From: Deltaproteobacteria bacterium | GTDB lineage: Bacteria > JAMCPX01 | Reading direction: 5' to 3' | DNA length: 58,820 nucleotides | NCBI GenBank assembly: GCA_023382265.1 | Contig: JAMCPX010000035.1 | Coordinates: forward strand, 1 to 58,820 | Part shown: in pieces, positions 32,909-44,360 of the stretch | How positions within the stretch are numbered: position 1 is the stretch's first letter | How the letters are laid out: each line of letters opens with the position of its first letter | Notes under the pieces: generated by a model | What the model was told of the DNA's origin: nothing | What the model saw: only the letters and a program-made list of their open reading frames with translations | Database searches by the model: none | Made by a program: the position numbers and the translations under genes

Positions 32909-33874
32909 CTATTTTAACCTGTCCGCAATAGCTGTGAATATGCTGTTTTTTACATCAAATAGTATGCCGTCCATCGTGCATCCTGCTGCATTCTTATGCC
33001 CGCCGCCGCCAAACACCTGTGCTATGGCCGAAACATCAACATCGTTTTTTGAACGCATACTTATCTTATATTTATTATCATCTACTTCTCTGAACATTGC
33101 TGCAACAGCCACGCCGCTTATGGATCTTGGGTAATCTATAAATCCTTCTGCGTCATCCTTTGTCGTACCTGTTGCATGGTACATTTGTCTGGTAAGCTCT
33201 ATAGAGGCGATTTTACCATTAACAGATAATTCAAGTGTTTTTAACACCATCTCAAGCAGTTTTAGCCTGCCGAGCGATTGATTTTCATAAAGTTTATCCG
33301 ATATTTCTGTTATGTTAGCGCCATTTTGTATAAGCTCAGATGCTATTTTTAATGTTTTTGCTGTAGTGTTTCTATACCTGAATGAACCCGTATCGTAAAT
33401 AATGCCGGTTAAAAGAAGAGACGCAATAGTAGTGTCAATTTTTATACCCATTTTACGGAAAAGTGTATAAACGAGTTCTGCTGTTGCAGATGATGCTGGA
33501 TCAACGATATTGAGATCACCAAACCTTGTGTTAGTCCTATGATGATCTACATTTACAATCATTTTTTTATCCTTCGGTGGGAATTTATCTCCAAGCATAT
33601 CAATGCTTCCTGCATCAAGAGATAAAACAACATCAAACTTATTATCAGGGATATCTTTACTTACTTCTGATGCAAAAGGCATAAAATCCATATACTTTGG
33701 CAGACCGTCAAAATTATGCACAAAAACAGTTTTCCCTGCCGAGTTAAGATAATAATAAAAAGCCAAAGCTGAACCAATCGTATCCGGCTCTGGATTTATG
33801 TGTGAAAATATTAAAAACGTTTTTGCATCTTTTATAACTTTACTCAATTCGTTTATAACTTTTTTTTGTATCAT
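32909..33874 (-). CDS. nrnA: DHH-family bifunctional oligoribonuclease/pAp phosphatase (NrnA)
   Basis: NrnA removes di- to penta-ribonucleotides and dephosphorylates pAp. The 321-residue protein shows the DHH metal motifs HINPEPDTIGSALAFYYYL, VLSLDAGSIDML and DHHRTN, and the DHHA1 substrate motif FGGGGHKNAAGCTMDG. It overlaps rbfA by ATGA. Its place between rbfA and truB is typical of many bacterial lineages. Confidence 0.93.
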   Translation of the reverse strand: MIQKKVINELSKVIKDAKTFLIFSHINPEPDTIGSALAFYYYLNSAGKTVFVHNFDGLPKYMDFMPFASEVSKDIPDNKFDVVLSLDAGSIDMLGDKFPPKDKKMIVNVDHHRTNTRFGDLNIVDPASSATAELVYTLFRKMGIKIDTTIASLLLTGIIYDTGSFRYRNTTAKTLKIASELIQNGANITEISDKLYENQSLGRLKLLEMVLKTLELSVNGKIASIELTRQMYHATGTTKDDAEGFIDYPRSISGVAVAAMFREVDDNKYKISMRSKNDVDVSAIAQVFGGGGHKNAAGCTMDGILFDVKNSIFTAIADRLK

Positions 33875-34218
33875 GAATGCTTTATGCCTTTTAAGATATT
33901 ATCTATGTGTTCTCCGTAATCAAGAGATATATCATATTTAAATGAAATTAAAGGAATGGTTTTAACATTCAGATGACACAGGAGTAATTCTTTCCTTATA
34001 AAACCCGATGCGCCGTTAAGTAATTTACCCGTATCCTTCTTTACCTTTTCATCGCCTATAACGGTGTAATATACCGTTGCAGCCTTAAAATCACCGGTAA
34101 CAATAACATCATTTATTGTTATGAATCCTATTCTTGGATCCCTCAGCCTTGTCGTAATAATCCTTATTATTTCCTTTCTTAACACTTCGCCAAATCTTTG
34201 TTTCCTGTTAGGTATCAT
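33871..34218 (-). CDS. rbfA: ribosome-binding factor A
   Basis: RbfA is a KH-fold cold-shock protein needed for 30S maturation and 16S 5'-end processing. The 115-residue sequence has RKQRFGEVLRKEIIRIITTRLRDP in two stretches, ITINDVIVTGDFKAATVYYTV and the C-terminal IPLISFKYDISLDYGEHID. It sits 41 bp after infB and overlaps nrnA. No Shine-Dalgarno is seen. Confidence 0.95.
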   Translation of the reverse strand: MIPNRKQRFGEVLRKEIIRIITTRLRDPRIGFITINDVIVTGDFKAATVYYTVIGDEKVKKDTGKLLNGASGFIRKELLLCHLNVKTIPLISFKYDISLDYGEHIDNILKGIKHS

Positions 34219-34259: not shown

Positions 34260-36899
34260 TTAAGACTTGGCTACCTGTTCCAAGCGGTAAACCTCGAGTT
34301 CATCACCCTTTTTTATATCATTAAAATTGGCTATTCCTACGCCGCACTCCATACCTTTATCAACATTTTTAGCATCTTCTTTAAACCTTTTCAGAGAACC
34401 AATCTTACTGTCATAAACAACTACTCCCTCCCTTAATATCCTCGCATTTGCCCCACGTTCTATCTTCCCCTCGGTGACAATGCATCCGGCAACAGTTCCC
34501 ACCTTGCTTACTTTGAATGTGTCAATGATTTTTGCTCTTCCAAGAATTTTCTCTTTAACCACAGGTTCAAGCATACCCACCAATGCCTTTTTCATATCAT
34601 CGATAAGATCATAAATGATGTTGTATGTTTTTATTTCGACATTTTGTAGTGAAGCAATATGGCTTGCCTTGGAATCTGGTCTTACATTAAAACCTATAAT
34701 AATACCATCCGATGCTGATGCAAGCATAACATCACTTTCCGTAATACTGCCTATAGAGGAATGAATTATCTTAATTTTTACATTTTCTCTTGAAAAACCA
34801 TCAATAGCATCCTTTATTGCACCAAGAGAACCAATGGAATCACATTTGAGTATTATTTTTAATTCCTTTATACTTCCTTCCTCTATCTTCTTATAAATAT
34901 CCTCAAGCGTAATCTTAATTTTCTTAGCAGGTTGTATAACCTGATGCTGCTGTTTTCGATACTCTACAATCTTTTTTGCGGTATCCTCATCATCGACGCT
35001 AAAAATAGTTTCACCGACCTCCGGAAATGAATCGAATCCTATGATCTCTACAGGCGTTGATGGAGCAGCATAAGCCATTATGTTCCCCTTTTCATCAAGC
35101 AATGCCCTTACTTTGTTGTAGTTATTCCCGTATACAACATAATTGCCCTTCTTAATGGTCCCTTCCCTGATAATGGCTGAGACAATCACACCAAGCCCTT
35201 TATCCATACGAGTTTCTATAATAATACCTTTTGCATTCTTATCCGGATTGGCTTTCAGTTCCATGATTTCTGCCTGTAAAAGTATAAGCTCTAAAAGTTC
35301 ATTAATCCCTTTCTTGTTTTTTGCAGAGATCATTGCGAAAAGGGTATTACCTCCCCATTGTTCAGGAACAAGTCCTTTATCGGATAACTGCTGCATAACT
35401 TTCTGAGGCTGGGCTTCAGGTTTATCTATCTTATTTATCGCAACAATTATAGGAACGGATGCTGCATTAGCATGATCTATTGCCTCAAGTGTCTGAGGCA
35501 TAGCACCATCATCCGCAGCTACAACAAGTATGACGAGGTCAGTTACTTTTGCTCCTCTTGCCCGCATTGCCGTAAAAGCCTCATGTCCCGGTGTATCAAG
35601 AAATGTTACCTGCTTATTATCAATCGTTACTTTATACGCACCTATGCTCTGAGTTATTCCACCAGCCTCACCGCCTGCTACGTTTGTTGATCTTATCGCG
35701 TCCAGCAAGGTTGTTTTCCCATGATCAACATGCCCCATAACAGTTACAACGGGTGGCCTCGGTTTCGATTTTTCCGGAGCATCGGTTTCGTTTTTGAATA
35801 CATCTTCAGGAGAAATCTCCTGCTTAATACTGACATCAAAGCCCATATCCTTAACGATCAGCGATGCTGTATCGGCATCTATAATATCATTTATGTTTGC
35901 CATTATTCCGAGTGTTATAAGTCGTTTTATAATTTCTGTGGCTTTTATGCCCATTAATTGGGATAGATTTGATACCGTAATACTTCTCTCTATGTTTATC
36001 GCTTTAGGCTGCTTTAAAATCTCTTTCGCCTTTTTTATCGTGTGTTGCTGCTGCATTTTTTTGCTTTGTGAATCTCTTCTCTTCGACTGCCCTTTTTGTC
36101 CGTATTCTTTGACAGGGATTACTTCCGGCAAAGGTTCTGGCGTTAATTCAACAGGCTCATCAAGTAGCTTAATCTCTTCTGCTATATCAGGCTCCGATCT
36201 GGAAAGAAGTTTTCTTTTTATGAAGATGCCTCCCTTCTCCGATTTTATTTTACCCTTGATTGTTTTGTAGCCATCATTAATCCCAGCTTCCGTACCTTCA
36301 TTTCTACCGGTAACAGACGTGTCTTGGTTTAAACCTGATTGAGTTTGTAGCGTAACATCATTATCCCGGGGCAGGACTGAAATCGTTGAGTCGTCTTTGA
36401 TCTCTACCATTTTATCTTCAGTTACTGCCGATTCGCTAACAGCCGTTTTAGGCTGGATCTCATCATGATCCACATGATGTTCTATCGTAACTTCATGTTT
36501 CACATTTTCCGGCACTTCTTCTCTATTACTAGAGGATACCTCTTCCTGACCATGTTGTTTAACAGCGGTAAGACTTTCAAAGGTCATACTTCCCTGTATT
36601 GCCGGCTCAGCATCTATTTTTCTTTCAGTAACGGCCGTTTCTTCCGTAGCGGCCTCTTTCTTTTTTCTAAGTATGGTTTTTGGTTTTTGAGGAGTTACAT
36701 TAGCCGTGTTTTGAGCACTCACCGCTGCCGATATAGTGCCGGGTTTCTTATGTGTTGATTTTTTTAATTTCTCCTCATCCTCCTCATTCACTGAACTGTT
36801 ATGTGATTTTAAAGACACTCCAAGTTCTTTTAACTTATTTATAACATCCGATGATGTCAAACCCATTTCCTTTGCTATTTCATGAACTCTTTTTTTCAT
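34260..36899 (-). CDS. infB: translation initiation factor IF-2
   Basis: IF-2 is the GTPase that brings initiator tRNA to the 30S subunit. The 879-residue protein has an N-terminal IF2_N helix domain ([18 protein letters not shown]), a long charged linker (about 50-290), a second IF2_N, and the G domain with [16 protein letters not shown] and NKID, then domains II-IV. The ATG at 36899 is preceded by GAGG; the frame runs back to a TTG that is not preferred. It follows nusA by 23 bp. Confidence 0.97.
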
Positions 36900-36922
36900 C
36901 TTTCCTCTTTTATACAATCATA

Positions 36923-38212
36923 CTATGAATGACTTTCAGCAGCAACGGTACCATTGTCATTTTTAATATTTTCACCGCGTTTTTTTATCTCTACATCCGC
37001 CATATCTTTTAGTTGTCTTGCATTTTTTTCATCAAATCCGGGCACTTTCATTAAAACTTCCAATGGCGATTCCGAGATCTCTTTAACAGACTTAATCCCA
37101 TAACCGTACAATAGCTCCGCTGTTTTACTGCTTATTGAATTAAATTCTGAAAACGCCTGTTTAGCCTTTTCTTTTATTTCATTAATATTCGTTTCACCTT
37201 TTATGTCTATCTTCCATCCGGTTAGCTTTGCGGCAAGCCTTACATTTACGCCTTTTCTGCCTATAGCTATTGATAATTGATCATCCGGTACAATAATTTC
37301 TATATATCTTTCTGCTTCATCAAAAGAAACCCCGCTTATCTTTGCAGGTGCAAGTGCATTCATTACATATTTTGCATGATCGTGCGTCCATGCGATAATA
37401 TCTATTTTTTCACCTCTCAACTCCTGAACAATATTCTGAACCCTTGCCCCTCTCATCCCTACACATGCACCAACCGCATCAACATCATTATTCTTTGAGA
37501 AAACTGCTATCTTTGCTTTATTCCCCGGCTCCCTTGCAACACCTTTAACTTCAACAACGCCTTCTGCAATTTCAGGAACCTCTAAAATAAACAGCTTCAC
37601 CAGAAATTGATCATGAGTTCTTGAGAAGAATATTTTAGGTCCCTTGTTGGTCATTCTTATTTCCTGCACGTACACCTTAATCTTGTCTCCTACCCTGAAG
37701 TTTTCTTTCGGCAGTTGATCCGCAGGCAACAAGACCCCGTCCGTTTTGCCAAGATCCAATATTATCGCCCTCCCTTCAAACCTCCTGATAGTCCCATAGA
37801 CAACTTCGCCTTTCTTAGATTTAAATTCCTTATAAACAACTTCCTTTTCAGCCTCGTTTATTCTTTGTAATATCACCTGTTTTGCAGCCTGGGCAGATAT
37901 CCTTCCAAACTTGGATGTATCCATCTTTATCCCTACACTATCACCGATCTGAGCATCCGGATCCATTGCAATTGCTTCATCAATGGTCAACTGTATATCC
38001 CTGTTCGTAATATCGCTTACAACCTCTTTGAATTCGTATACCTCTATCTCTCCAAGTTCCGGATTAAACCTTGCTTCTATATCTGTGTTATACTTTATCG
38101 TTTTTTTAGCGGCGCTTATCATAGCAGCTTCCAATGCATTCAATATAATGTCCTTATCTATGCTTTTATCATGTTCAAGCTGTTCAATAATCTTTAAAAG
38201 TTCTGATTGCAT
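36923..38212 (-). CDS. nusA: transcription elongation/termination factor NusA
   Basis: NusA binds RNA polymerase, slows it at hairpins and takes part in termination and antitermination. The 429-residue protein has the N-terminal polymerase-binding domain (1-125), S1 (GEVVYGTIRRFEGRAIILDLG), two KH domains (ACVGMRGARVQNIV, IAIGRKGVNVRLAAKL) and a C-terminal helix-hairpin-helix (ELLYGYGIKSVKEI, LMKVPGFDEKNARQL). It lies 9 bp after rimP. The strong hairpin in the operon leader (38705-38732) makes autoregulation by NusA plausible. Confidence 0.97.
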   Translation of the reverse strand: MQSELLKIIEQLEHDKSIDKDIILNALEAAMISAAKKTIKYNTDIEARFNPELGEIEVYEFKEVVSDITNRDIQLTIDEAIAMDPDAQIGDSVGIKMDTSKFGRISAQAAKQVILQRINEAEKEVVYKEFKSKKGEVVYGTIRRFEGRAIILDLGKTDGVLLPADQLPKENFRVGDKIKVYVQEIRMTNKGPKIFFSRTHDQFLVKLFILEVPEIAEGVVEVKGVAREPGNKAKIAVFSKNNDVDAVGACVGMRGARVQNIVQELRGEKIDIIAWTHDHAKYVMNALAPAKISGVSFDEAERYIEIIVPDDQLSIAIGRKGVNVRLAAKLTGWKIDIKGETNINEIKEKAKQAFSEFNSISSKTAELLYGYGIKSVKEISESPLEVLMKVPGFDEKNARQLKDMADVEIKKRGENIKNDNGTVAAESHS

Positions 38213-38221
38213 AATTCGCTC

Positions 38222-38686
38222 CTATATCTTGAAGGTCAAATTGGCTTTTTTTACAATACCGTAAGGCACTTTTAACTCTATGCCGTTTACATCTACTATA
38301 ATATCACCATTTGTTATTCCCCTAAGGGTGCCTTCTATAACAACCATATCATTAACAGGCTTTCTTGTAATAACCCTTATATCCCTGCCTGCAAATTTAA
38401 TATATTCACTCTCCTTTTTTAGCTCTCTTGTAAGCCCTGGAGACGAAACTTCAAGCGTGTAAGCAAAGTGTATCGGTACGTATACATCTATCAAGCTGCT
38501 AAGTATATTGCTTGCTTTTGCACAATCATCGGCATTAACAATCCCTTTCTTATCAATAAATACACGAAGTACATTCCCAGATTTTTCTCTCTGGTATTCT
38601 ACATCTATCACCTCATAACCTGCTTTTATAAGGTTTTCAGAGGCAATTTTAAAAACATCTTCTGCTATATTTTTATATTTATCCAT
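38222..38686 (-). CDS. rimP: ribosome maturation factor RimP
   Basis: RimP assists assembly of the 30S subunit. The 154-residue protein carries the family motifs GYEVIDVEYQREKSGNVLRVFID and DDCAKASNILSSLID in separate stretches, and the signature LEVSSPGLTRELKK. It is the first gene of the rimP-nusA-infB-rbfA-nrnA-truB-rpsO-pnp operon. The ATG has no clear Shine-Dalgarno and is only 18 nt from the leader hairpin. Confidence 0.95.
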   Translation of the reverse strand: MDKYKNIAEDVFKIASENLIKAGYEVIDVEYQREKSGNVLRVFIDKKGIVNADDCAKASNILSSLIDVYVPIHFAYTLEVSSPGLTRELKKESEYIKFAGRDIRVITRKPVNDMVVIEGTLRGITNGDIIVDVNGIELKVPYGIVKKANLTFKI

Positions 38687-38704
38687 TTTATTTATGCGAT
38701 AAAC

Positions 38705-38732
38705 AAAAAAGTGGGAATAATCCCACTTTTTT
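38705..38732 (-). terminator. perfect terminator hairpin in the rimP-nusA leader
   Basis: AAAAAAGTGGGA-ataa-TCCCACTTTTTT is a perfect 12-bp stem with a U-tract on either strand. It lies 18-46 nt before the rimP ATG and no gene to its left is on the plus strand, so it is not simply the end of a neighbour. Unless the promoter lies in the 18 nt after it, every rimP-operon transcript must pass through it, which makes it a candidate attenuator. Confidence 0.7.
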
Positions 38733-38964
38733 TTATTTCTAACATCTTATCCTTACTTTTTCAAGTATTTTTACAATTTCTGTTACATCAACTTTATATC
38801 CTATATCTACAACTATTTAATAAAGCTCAAAAATTATGTAAATACAACTATTTTTTTATATATCATGCCTTTATTCAAAAGTATATACTTTTTAGAATCT
38901 TAATGAACTATCCTGCGGCAAACAACAGGTGGTTTTCGAGTTAAGATTCGGGAGTCTTGATAAG

Positions 38965-38982
38965 AAGATGTCTTGACATCTT
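38965..38982. promoter_or_regulatory. operator-like palindrome over the wzm -35 box
   Basis: AAGATGTC-TT-GACATCTT is a perfect 8+2+8 inverted repeat whose centre includes TTGACA, the -35 box of wzm. A repressor here would block the promoter. The binding protein is unknown. Confidence 0.55.
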
Positions 38983-39001
38983 TATTAATAAAAATAATCA
39001 T
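38973..39001 (+). promoter_or_regulatory. promoter of wzm-wzt, leaderless arrangement
   Basis: TTGACA (perfect) and AATCAT (4/6) are spaced 17 nt apart. The -10 box ends 7 nt before the ATG at 39009 and there is no Shine-Dalgarno, so transcription probably starts at the start codon. Confidence 0.5.
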
Positions 39002-41327: not shown

Positions 41328-44300
41328 TTATGGTTCAAAGATCACCCTTGATTCTGCATTCGCAATTATGTCCTTCGGGTAAAACCACTGGGGGTGCACC
41401 TGATTGTTTATCCACAGATTTACCTGATCCCCGTAATGCTTTGGCGGATTATTAGGATCAGGTCCCATGCCCGATTCTCCGCCAGGAAGGACATTATATC
41501 CGATAATATCGCCTGGCTTCATCTCAACGGAGAACCTGATCGCTGGTCCGCTGCCATACGTATAATTTGTGTAAAAATTTGTTGATTGGTTATTGCCCAT
41601 CTCAAACCCGAACGTCCCGGGATCAACAGAGAACATGCTACCTGGTCTTGGATAGCCTTTCCCGTTATTTGGAAGGTTTAAGTTCTGGTATAGATTGTGT
41701 GCCGCAAGGTTAAGAAGATCAGAGAAGGTCAGAGTGTGCAGCTTGCCCCACTCCCATTGAGACATGTCAGTCGTTCCAAAGCTCGTTGGTGTGCTATTTC
41801 CAGAGTTGGGTGAAATAGAAAGATCGGTTATACCCTCCAAAAGGCTTTTTATCATGATCTGATCGGGGTTTCCTACAGTAAATGTAAAACCTGTGCCCGA
41901 CGCTGTAAGTGCATCAAACAGTGTACTCTGCCTTTCCGATGGCGAGTACGTTGCACACTGCGTTGGATGCTCAAGCATTGTCAATAATGTGTTGATGATG
42001 ATATCGTCGTTAACTGCCCTGTCCTGCCCTATTGCCCGCATCTTGTCATAAAAGATATTGTAAAACAGCCTTTGCACGAATGCTTCAAATATGGACGTCG
42101 CAATGCTGTTGTTTATGTCCTGCGTTGTTGCCGACTGGGATAATCCTGTGGGTGTGTCATACGGGTGTGTACCGGTTGTCCATTCGCTAAGATAATTCAT
42201 TGCGGTTGCTATTTGCGGATTCGATGTAACGGTAGGTGTGCTTGCCATATCACTATATGCCTTTTGCAAGAACGGCAGTATCCGTAATGCATAAGTATCC
42301 GTATGATCAGCCTGTATAGTATTCTGTACATAAGCAAGATCTATGACCGGCTTACCTGCTTCTATATCTTTATCTATCTCCTGTGCCCTGAACCCGGGAT
42401 CAAAGAACCCTCCAAGATAATATGGATTATCAAGCGGTTCGTTATTGTAAGTAACGCCGGCAGGATCTTCATTTGCCGTTGCAATATAGCCCTGTGCGGG
42501 GTTTTCCGTGAACGGTACTGCTGATGTCGGTACCATGCTGCCTATCCAGTAAAAATTAGAATCCGTGCCTGGCAGCATAATGTAAGGCGGATAAGTGAAA
42601 TCACTGAACTGTAATCCGCTCGGCAGGGCGTTTGTTGTATAGCTGAATGTATACGGGCCCCTTATCGGGATTGCACTCTGATCCGTCAAGTATATATTGC
42701 CGTATATATCGGCATAAACAAAGTTCTGCCCGCCTACCTTAAAATAGCTTTGAGCTGTTATAAACTGGGCAAGGTTTTGCGCCTGGTCAATATCATAGAA
42801 TGCCTGAATCTCGTTTGACTGCATCATCATGCCTGTCCATGTAAATGCAATGGCTGATGTTGATCCAGGTGCGTAGCTGCCCGTATATATTGGCATTGTG
42901 CCGTGTCCCGGTATCGTAACATAATACATATCATATGTGCCTGTTGTTACTTTTCCGCCATTTAACGGGCCCCCAAAATTGAATGTTACAGCCACGGTTT
43001 GTATTGGATAGGAGATGCCGTTATACACGACCGAATCAGGATTGCCCGTTTTAACAGTTTCCTGATAAACATCTATAACATCGGACGGAAATACTGTATC
43101 ACCCCATGCGATATAGTCATTGTGTCCTATTATTACACCCGGTGCCATAGGGAATACAACGCCAATGGTATTGATGTTCCCATTACCCATGGCCTCTGTA
43201 TTGACATGGACTTCGTAAAAGATCGGCGGATTATAAAGCGGCAGGTGCGTGTCATTTGCAAGAATTGCATAGCCATCCTTTGTCAGACCCGGACTGATTA
43301 CCCAGTTGTTACTGCCGATCTGACCTGCGCTGCGGTGCTTGTATAAAAAGCCAAAAGGACCGTTTTGTAATGATTCATAAAACGACTCTGCACCCTGTAA
43401 AGCATTCTGGTTTACCTGCAAAGGCTGGAAAGCCGCGTTGTTTTGTATACCCGATGTAGACATCGTATTGAGTGTGTTATACGACAAATAAGAGAATGTC
43501 GTAGAGGTTGCATATGAAAACGGATTTGGCAACGGCACTGCGGGTGCCTTTGCAGCGGGCTCTGAACGGGCAAAATCGTATGCAATGCCTGAAAAATGGC
43601 TCTCGCCTTGATCGGATGAAGTGGATGTGAATGTAGTAACAGCAGCGTTTAAGTAATGCGTTGCATGGATCTTTGTGCCCTCATTTTCCTCCGTAAGACT
43701 GTAGGACTCAAACTTACCAAATGCTATGATATCCTGCGGGGTGAACGGCTTTATGTCGGAAATGGTTATACCCAGAAGCGCACTTGAATATTCTGCAGGC
43801 AGGACATTTGCATTTGGATTTGCCTGAACTTGTTGAGCAAGCTGGCTCAGGTAGAAATTTATTCCATTGCAAAATGATTGAAGTATACCCTTCAGATCCC
43901 GAGGTGTCTGGGCATAAACAATCTGTGCGATTGTATAATAGCCCATCATTCTCGAATGTATGTCCTCGTTTAATGCTTGCTCGCCAAAATATTCCGTTAA
44001 CGTACCGTCCGCTATATGTCTGAACATGTCCATCTCAAACAGCCTGTCCGATGCCTCTGCATAGCCCTGGGCAAACGCGACATCAGTCATGGTTCTGCCG
44101 TATATGTGCGGTATGCCATAAGTATCCCTTATAATCTCAACAGGGTATTGTAAATCACCCGGTGCCACATTAATGGTTTGATTTACTGTTAGTGCTGTAA
44201 ATGGGTCGTTAGGCCCTATCGATACACCTCCACCGTTAAGACCTGTTGTAGCGCTGCTTACACCCTTTGAGCAATTATTTACAAGCAATAATCCGGCAAT

Positions 44301-44360
44301 CGAGAGAACCAATAGAATTAGCTTTACATTTTTGTATAAATCCTTTTTTGCACAATACAT
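41328..44360 (-). CDS. penicillin acylase-family (Ntn hydrolase) lipoprotein
   Basis: This 1010-residue N-terminal-nucleophile amidohydrolase precursor begins with a signal peptide ending in the lipobox LLVNNC, so it is an outer-membrane or periplasmic lipoprotein. The alpha-chain region carries VEIIRDTYGIPHIYGRTMTDV and FAQGYAEASDRLFEMDMFRH; the autocleavage site and nucleophile are in GSNNW, Ser350. GHNDYIAWGDTVFPSDVIDVY follows. Relatives deacylate penicillins, homoserine lactones or cyclic lipopeptides; quorum quenching is possible but unproved. At over 1000 residues it is longer than the usual 750-850. The ATG has AGGAG. Confidence 0.9.
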   Translation of the reverse strand: MYCAKKDLYKNVKLILLVLSIAGLLLVNNCSKGVSSATTGLNGGGVSIGPNDPFTALTVNQTINVAPGDLQYPVEIIRDTYGIPHIYGRTMTDVAFAQGYAEASDRLFEMDMFRHIADGTLTEYFGEQALNEDIHSRMMGYYTIAQIVYAQTPRDLKGILQSFCNGINFYLSQLAQQVQANPNANVLPAEYSSALLGITISDIKPFTPQDIIAFGKFESYSLTEENEGTKIHATHYLNAAVTTFTSTSSDQGESHFSGIAYDFARSEPAAKAPAVPLPNPFSYATSTTFSYLSYNTLNTMSTSGIQNNAAFQPLQVNQNALQGAESFYESLQNGPFGFLYKHRSAGQIGSNNWVISPGLTKDGYAILANDTHLPLYNPPIFYEVHVNTEAMGNGNINTIGVVFPMAPGVIIGHNDYIAWGDTVFPSDVIDVYQETVKTGNPDSVVYNGISYPIQTVAVTFNFGGPLNGGKVTTGTYDMYYVTIPGHGTMPIYTGSYAPGSTSAIAFTWTGMMMQSNEIQAFYDIDQAQNLAQFITAQSYFKVGGQNFVYADIYGNIYLTDQSAIPIRGPYTFSYTTNALPSGLQFSDFTYPPYIMLPGTDSNFYWIGSMVPTSAVPFTENPAQGYIATANEDPAGVTYNNEPLDNPYYLGGFFDPGFRAQEIDKDIEAGKPVIDLAYVQNTIQADHTDTYALRILPFLQKAYSDMASTPTVTSNPQIATAMNYLSEWTTGTHPYDTPTGLSQSATTQDINNSIATSIFEAFVQRLFYNIFYDKMRAIGQDRAVNDDIIINTLLTMLEHPTQCATYSPSERQSTLFDALTASGTGFTFTVGNPDQIMIKSLLEGITDLSISPNSGNSTPTSFGTTDMSQWEWGKLHTLTFSDLLNLAAHNLYQNLNLPNNGKGYPRPGSMFSVDPGTFGFEMGNNQSTNFYTNYTYGSGPAIRFSVEMKPGDIIGYNVLPGGESGMGPDPNNPPKHYGDQVNLWINNQVHPQWFYPKDIIANAESRVIFEP

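Follow-up and report, generated by a model that had tools for sequence, protein, structure and literature searches.

The rimP-nusA-infB-rbfA operon in a 58,820-nucleotide stretch of DNA from a Deltaproteobacteria bacterium (contig JAMCPX010000035.1 of assembly GCA_023382265.1; the whole stretch is called the window here) is preceded by a short terminator hairpin, which most likely acts as a NusA-responsive attenuator of the rimP-leader kind that works without an antiterminator; its promoter, its termination and its dependence on NusA are predicted. The hairpin, its strand, its conservation, its gene context and its specificity for nusA operons are established here. The element itself is ordinary in kind, and what is added to its description is that it goes with nusA rather than with rimP.

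Structure and genomic setting of the hairpin

On the plus strand the hairpin reads AAAAAAGTGGGA-ATAA-TCCCACTTTTTT, which makes 12 pairs around a 4-nt loop; on the minus strand, from which rimP is read, it is AAAAAAGTGGGATTATTCCCACTTTTTT followed by GTTTATCG. The surrounding 71 nt folded at -18.7 kcal/mol (z -5.0) on the minus strand and at -15.5 kcal/mol (z -4.8) on the plus strand, and none of 200 shuffles folded as well on either strand. The perfect 12-bp stem with a U-tract that an earlier note on this DNA had placed just before rimP-nusA is thus confirmed, as are the two downstream genes, by Pfam (Table 1). Since six of the 12 pairs are A-U pairs contributed by an A-run and a T-run, the core of the hairpin is a 6-bp stem with four G-C pairs. 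T-runs flank the window hairpin on both sides, and this copy could act in either direction; in the relatives described below the long T-run is that of the rimP strand.

Table 1. Coordinates of the leader elements and operon genes in the window.
Feature	Position	Strand	Basis or remark
Terminator hairpin in the rimP-nusA leader (12 bp, loop of 4)	38705..38732	-	core GUGGGA/UCCCAC at 38711-38726
U-tract UUUUUU G UUU, single purine at position 7 (A in 8 relatives)	38701..38710	-	
Putative -35, TTGAAA, invariant in 9/9	38759..38764	-	inferred from alignment and geometry
Putative extended -10: TG at 38743-38744, hexamer TAGAAA at 38736-38741, 17-nt spacer	38736..38744	-	inferred
rimP, first gene	38222..38686	-	ORF; Pfam RimP_N 6e-21, DUF150_C 2.2e-10
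nusA (NusA_N, S1, KH, HHH_5), second gene	36923..38212	-	ORF; Pfam
Putative infB (IF-2), third gene	34260..36917	-	ORF; named from reading the sequence
Putative rbfA, fourth gene	33871..34218	-	ORF; named from reading the sequence

The window contains a single copy of the core GTGGGANNNNTCCCAC, against 0.00 expected, and GTGGGANNNNTCCCACTTTTTT, the core together with its six T, lies at a single place in the 2.63-Mb genome, where it is read on both strands. A simple terminator scan gave 6 terminator-like sites between 36000 and 42000 against 4.2 expected, so terminator-like sites as a class are not enriched there. Minimum free energy folding of 38660-38800 returned the hairpin with weak neighbours and no competing helix. 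The Rfam scan assigned no family to the hairpin at gathering thresholds, and the 13 matches found near it at E<=5 were weak small RNA matches only, RF01770 not being among them.

The neighbour of rimP on the plus strand is divergent and encodes an ABC-2 transporter subunit, as identified by Pfam, and the ORF list holds no minus-strand ORF of at least 60 codons between 38687 and 39855. The minus-strand interval from the hairpin to the rimP ATG (38687-38704) contains no visible ribosome-binding site in the window; in eight relatives it holds a purine-rich stretch. On the plus strand, 5' of the transporter gene, positions 38880-38999 carry two structures, the inverted repeat GAATCTTAA/TTAAGATTC and another hairpin with T-rich sequence after it. 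This structured stretch folded with a z of -3.4, two of 200 shuffles being equally good, and belonged to no Rfam family at gathering; the slightly longer stretch 38860-39000 had no match in eight other genomes (five of the family and three outside it) and is therefore not linked to the rimP hairpin. Elsewhere in the window, the minus strand at 41328-44360 holds an ORF of 1010 codons that by eye resembles penicillin-acylase-type enzymes and has a lipoprotein-like start.

Conservation in the family and a predicted short transcript

Eight relatives from the same family were collected by a genome scan and a relative search, seven of them being present in both sets; duplicate copies of relatives, and L028, whose sequence lacks the start codon, were left out of the counts. 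The hairpin stands before rimP in all eight, as it does in the window, so that position and sequence are kept in nine of nine family members, a comparison that the earlier note had proposed. Invariant in the nine leaders are GTGGG...CCCAC, six T directly after it, one purine and then TTT; as this purine the window has G and the eight relatives have A. Eight of the leaders have a loop of 4 nt and L008 has one of 6 nt, and the rimP ATG follows the hairpin end after 18 nt on the minus strand of the window and after 22-46 nt in the relatives. A pattern search of six family genomes returned one site each, always at rimP. Among three genomes outside the family the same search found a site 44 nt before the rimP domain in G009, a site elsewhere in G011 and none in G010. 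When the loci of the eight relatives were passed through cmscan, only a tRNA was reported. Because the stem pairs hardly vary within the family, their covariation is slight, and it was dropped as a proof of structure, 66 of 500 shuffles doing as well.

The nine family leaders also have CTTGAAAA in common upstream of the hairpin, with a TG further on. By position and spacing, the shared TTGAAA and this TG would form a -35 element and an extended -10 element (Table 1). The TG is at the -10 place in all nine; the -10 hexamers are poor, and a simple promoter consensus scan did not list the pair. In the window (3 nt) and in L032 the predicted transcription start falls 2-3 nt before GTGGG, in the other family leaders 14-16 nt before it, which puts the end of the six T 24-39 nt past the predicted start across the family and 25 nt past it in the window. 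With the promoter-like element just upstream of the hairpin there would be little room for a competing structure or an antiterminator.

As the earlier note pointed out, a start downstream of 38705 would leave the hairpin outside the mRNA. The conserved promoter-like element upstream speaks against such a start, but the start predicted for this leader in the window, at about 38729, lies inside the A-run with which the stem begins on its 5' side, so that only part of the 12-bp stem would be transcribed. A length of 25 nt would also be very short for a terminated RNA, which makes this a weak point for an attenuator in the window copy.

The hairpin at the head of nusA operons

Domain searches of 193 genomes matched NusA_N in 183 and RimP_N in 147. 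A first sample of 40 rimP leaders from other families held 27 with a terminator-like hairpin on the rimP strand and 23 with one that has GGG and CCC arms; the corresponding numbers were 5 and 4 on the opposite strand and 0-3 and 0-1 in ten shuffled sets. A uniform leader test, in which a G[TC]GGG...CCC[AG]C stem with a T-tract had to lie within 250 nt, found the motif terminator in 42/87 rimP-nusA leaders outside the family and in 5/87 on the opposite strand. The 87 are the leaders fetched from about 132 genomes for which separation of rimP from nusA had not been demonstrated, with adjacency taken from domain-match coordinates or from a RimP model built here, and the leader counts are not independent because some families contributed more than one genome. 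By the same test the motif was absent from 45 of these 87 leaders and from 19 of 30 leaders of nusA genes without rimP in front (bare nusA); the hairpin is not universal in either class.

A strict pattern, GTGGGYN{3,9}RCCCACTTTT, gave 46 strand-wise matches in the 193 genomes, which reduce to 39 distinct sites in 37 genomes when the two strand readings of one palindrome are merged; the reversed-pattern control gave 5. Twenty-nine of the 39 sites lie before rimP (28 by coordinates and that of G169 by the RimP model built here), five lie before nusA with no rimP in between (G138, G140, G168, G020 and G127), and five lie elsewhere. Eight belong to the family of the window, whose own copy falls outside the strict pattern because it has GGGA...TCCC. 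Each of the five sites elsewhere overlaps, on at least one strand, a stop-to-stop frame of 90 codons or more, the frames at L184, L185 and L188 being long (415, 520 and 571). A common target for these five was considered and rejected, no shared gene being seen when their frames alone were read.

Bare-nusA leaders were collected as 32 nusA loci from genomes that lack a RimP_N match or carry rimP on another contig. Two of them, L073 and L096, were removed when the RimP model built here found rimP in front of nusA, leaving 30. Besides G022 and G191, these come from 28 of the 46 genomes that gave no RimP_N match, namely those with a nusA position among the matches listed, genomes absent from the listing having been identified by subtraction. 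The motif terminator lies within 250 nt before nusA in 11 of the 30, against 3 of 30 on the opposite strand, and a looser letter pattern raised the count to 12. At L071 and L094, two bare-nusA leaders of family f5, the hairpin is a variant, GGGGTGGC...GCCGCCTT, that has a T-tract but falls outside the motif test. At seven loci without rimP before nusA (L074, L076, L081, L082, L084, L086 and L097) a frame of 450 codons or more on the same strand ends 4-147 nt before the nusA domain, most of these frames being cut by the edge of the sequence compared.

The reverse arrangement, rimP apart from nusA, was found in four genomes, a small class, and none of the four rimP genes carries the motif. In G022 and G191 the two genes are on different contigs, the rimP of G022 being a partial frame; in G048 no NusA match occurs in the ~9.5 kb after rimP, and in G077 none occurs in the 3.9 kb from rimP to the contig end. 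G014 and G064, ambiguous because their contigs end before nusA could be seen, were set aside, with the motif in 0/2. In G022 and G191 the motif is absent before nusA as well as before rimP, and these two genomes therefore do not discriminate between NusA and RimP.

Two lineages offer closer comparisons. In the class of G138 (eight genomes), G138 and G193 have the hairpin before nusA with nothing of the size of rimP between, G194, G195 and G196, which form one genus of the family of G138, have it before rimP-nusA, and three genomes gave no match; within that one family, then, one genus has the hairpin at rimP-nusA and two have it at bare nusA. Of the 40 genomes in the phylum of G168, the strict pattern matched 15 and was absent from 25, with 16 distinct sites and 3 from the reversed-pattern control. 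Fourteen of the 16 lie before nusA with no rimP match between (G168 and G020 are counted here as well as among the 39 strict sites), one lies before rimP-nusA in a second operon of G231, and one, in G202, lies elsewhere. RimP_N was absent from G020 and G168, the two of the 40 phylum genomes that were tested for it. G231 has two nusA operons, one bare and one with rimP (L207 and L213), each with a hairpin; contamination is possible in this genome.

The hairpin keeps to the head of the nusA operon with or without rimP. This bears on whether the same attenuator might answer to RimP, or to a signal from ribosome assembly, instead of NusA. Such an effector is unlikely. It would suit the first place of rimP after the hairpin in the window's family and at the 29 strict sites, and RimP feedback is mentioned as a possibility in the rimP-leader paper (PMC2965389). 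However, the hairpin also stands before nusA without rimP, at five of the strict sites, in 11 of the 30 bare-nusA leaders and at 14 of the 16 sites in the phylum of G168, and the separate rimP genes, few as they are and with one of them partial, lack it. Together these two observations favour NusA over RimP as the controlling protein, and the RimP effector is ranked below the NusA-responsive attenuator.

Letters of the stem and the U-tract

The stem was compared across 54 motif leaders outside the family. At its second position the 5' arm has U in 49 leaders and C in 5, and opposite it A is found in 38, G in 15 and C in 1; the position pairs in 53 of the 54, which 0 of 2000 shuffles reach. The outer pair at -2 forms in 48 of 54 leaders, above all 2000 shuffles, and the results are less clear for the pair at -1 (51/54; 49 of 2000 shuffles) and for the innermost pair (39/54; 15 of 2000), in all cases with shuffles that ignore relatedness among the leaders. 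The leaders had been chosen by GNGGG...CCCNC followed by TTT, which builds in that core; the kept U with its changing partner is not built in. Wobble pairing favours a kept U with a changing partner, and the pattern hints that the 5' arm may be read by letter. The inner motif letter in the 54 leaders is most commonly C (29) and then T (18).

A single purine interrupts the T-tract in 9/9 family leaders and in 44/78 motif leaders in all. Such an interruption occurs in 3 of 51 control hairpins and, once a stricter T-run is required, in 3 of 27, a comparison that is weak because the controls include chance hairpins and are not known terminators. In B. subtilis, attenuation that is stimulated by NusA and needs no antiterminator goes with a suboptimal hairpin or an interrupted U-tract. 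In PMC8060035, suboptimal hairpins and U-tracts are linked to help from NusA, and distal interruptions of the U-tract to NusG. A literature search for an RNA motif of NusA returned one unrelated paper.

A plain terminator needs pairing, not a fixed sequence. The hairpin might nevertheless be an ordinary constitutive terminator that guards against upstream or antisense transcription and exerts no feedback, on both strands where the window is concerned. The window copy would fit this, having T-runs on both sides and folding well on both strands, and so would L008, in which a co-directional upstream frame ends 378 nt before the ATG. In eight of the nine family members, however, the longest upstream frame is divergent (only frames were read, in L008 as in the others), the promoter-like element is conserved between the upstream frame and the hairpin, and the letters of the stem, beyond its pairing, are common to several families, all of which makes a constitutive terminator improbable. 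A non-terminating role as a 5' stem-loop, in mRNA protection or in ribosome placement, would agree with a hairpin close to the predicted 5' end and 18-46 nt from the ATG, above all in the window with its start 3 nt before GTGGG; it is very improbable, since a stabilising stem would not need the U-tract that directly follows the stem in 9/9. As for a DNA palindrome bound by a repressor, suggested by an inverted repeat beside a promoter-like element, it has hardly any likelihood, given that the GGG-to-CCC distance is not constant (6 or 8 nt among family members and 3-14 nt over all 63 motif leaders) and that the long T-tract of the relatives is on one strand.

Comparison with known leaders

The closest known system is rimP-leader, which the passages of Naville and Gautheret (2010; PMC2965389) that deal with it rank as the most widespread of the predicted attenuators and describe as a GGGc...gCCC hairpin with a T-stretch located 4-130 nt before the first gene of the rimP-nusA-infB operon and having no antiterminator in its general form. 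There NusA is given as the best candidate effector, while the element is named after rimP and the answering protein is left open. The window hairpin shares with it the short G-rich 5' arm, the C-rich 3' arm, the T-stretch, the distance and the coding strand, and the GGG arm, CCC arm and T-stretch recur in 9/9 family members. It also has no visible antiterminator, in that no competing helix appears in the minimum free energy fold and a predicted 2-16 nt precede GTGGG. Two differences stand out. The published element is described at rimP-nusA-infB operons, whereas here the hairpin is found also before nusA with no rimP in front; the portions of main text searched do not describe that arrangement. 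The inner letters also differ from GGGc...gCCC, being GGGa..uCCC in the window, GGGu..aCCC in seven relatives and GGGu..gCCC in L009. Because the inner c and g are printed in lower case, they are taken as preferred and not as defining, and the family hairpin is regarded as a variant of rimP-leader.

Within the parts of the literature searched, no element of this kind is reported from the lineage of the window. NusA-stimulated termination in a leader of B. subtilis was reportedly first described by Mondal in 2016. In that organism NusA is autoregulated by NusA-stimulated termination in its own leader, according to the part of PMC12288461 that treats it; the same kind of intrinsic terminator lies ahead of nusA there and here, control by NusA level being reported from experiment in B. 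subtilis and proposed from comparative evidence in the present case. The leader of the S. agalactiae gbs0413-gbs0418 (rimP-nusA) operon, in the relevant section of PMC4448216, ends by intrinsic termination 31 nt after the start as judged by RNA-seq, which falls inside the 24-39 nt predicted here, though the lineage is distant and the present range is a prediction only.

The Rfam family RF01770 (rimP), described in the pertinent lines of PMC5955585 as gammaproteobacterial, is a leader of the same operon, but its covariance model does not match the window hairpin. The 102-position model reached its cut-off in none of 60 genomes while the E. coli control was positive, and one weak match, in G057, is on another contig than its rimP. 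Other layers of control at this operon appear in the accessible parts of further papers: cleavage by RNase III near rimP-metY in E. coli (PMC5371410), a proposed link to CiaR in pneumococcus (PMC6560143) and, for a fusion carrying the rimP leader of E. coli, lower expression when Rho is mutated (PMC7815308).

A candidate NusA feedback loop

NusA is a general termination factor. In the mechanism that we favour, RNA polymerase would start at a point between 2 and about 16 nt ahead of the GUGGG stem, make the hairpin and its purine-interrupted U-tract, and then either stop at the U-tract, releasing an RNA of roughly 25-40 nt, or read on into rimP. NusA bound to the polymerase would raise the rate of stopping, so that plentiful NusA would, without any antiterminator, reduce transcription of the operon that encodes it. 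Attenuation in the leader of the nusA operon, as the earlier note had read the hairpin, gains support from the position in the leader on the coding strand, the conservation in 9/9, the published NusA-responsive cases and the hairpin before bare nusA.

A further step is plausible, if slightly more open to doubt than to acceptance. GUGGG(C/U)...(G/A)CCCAC may be an ancient, sequence-specific NusA-response element that belongs to nusA and not to rimP and precedes the first gene of the nusA operon, whichever that is, its letters, chiefly those of the 5' arm, being read by NusA or by NusA-bound polymerase within some 25-40 nt of the start. That distant families have stem letters in common raises the question of what reads them. 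A hairpin that lets NusA limit its own supply would be a very simple feedback loop, and the genomes with bare nusA or with a separate rimP make the choice between NusA and RimP as its controlling protein directly testable.
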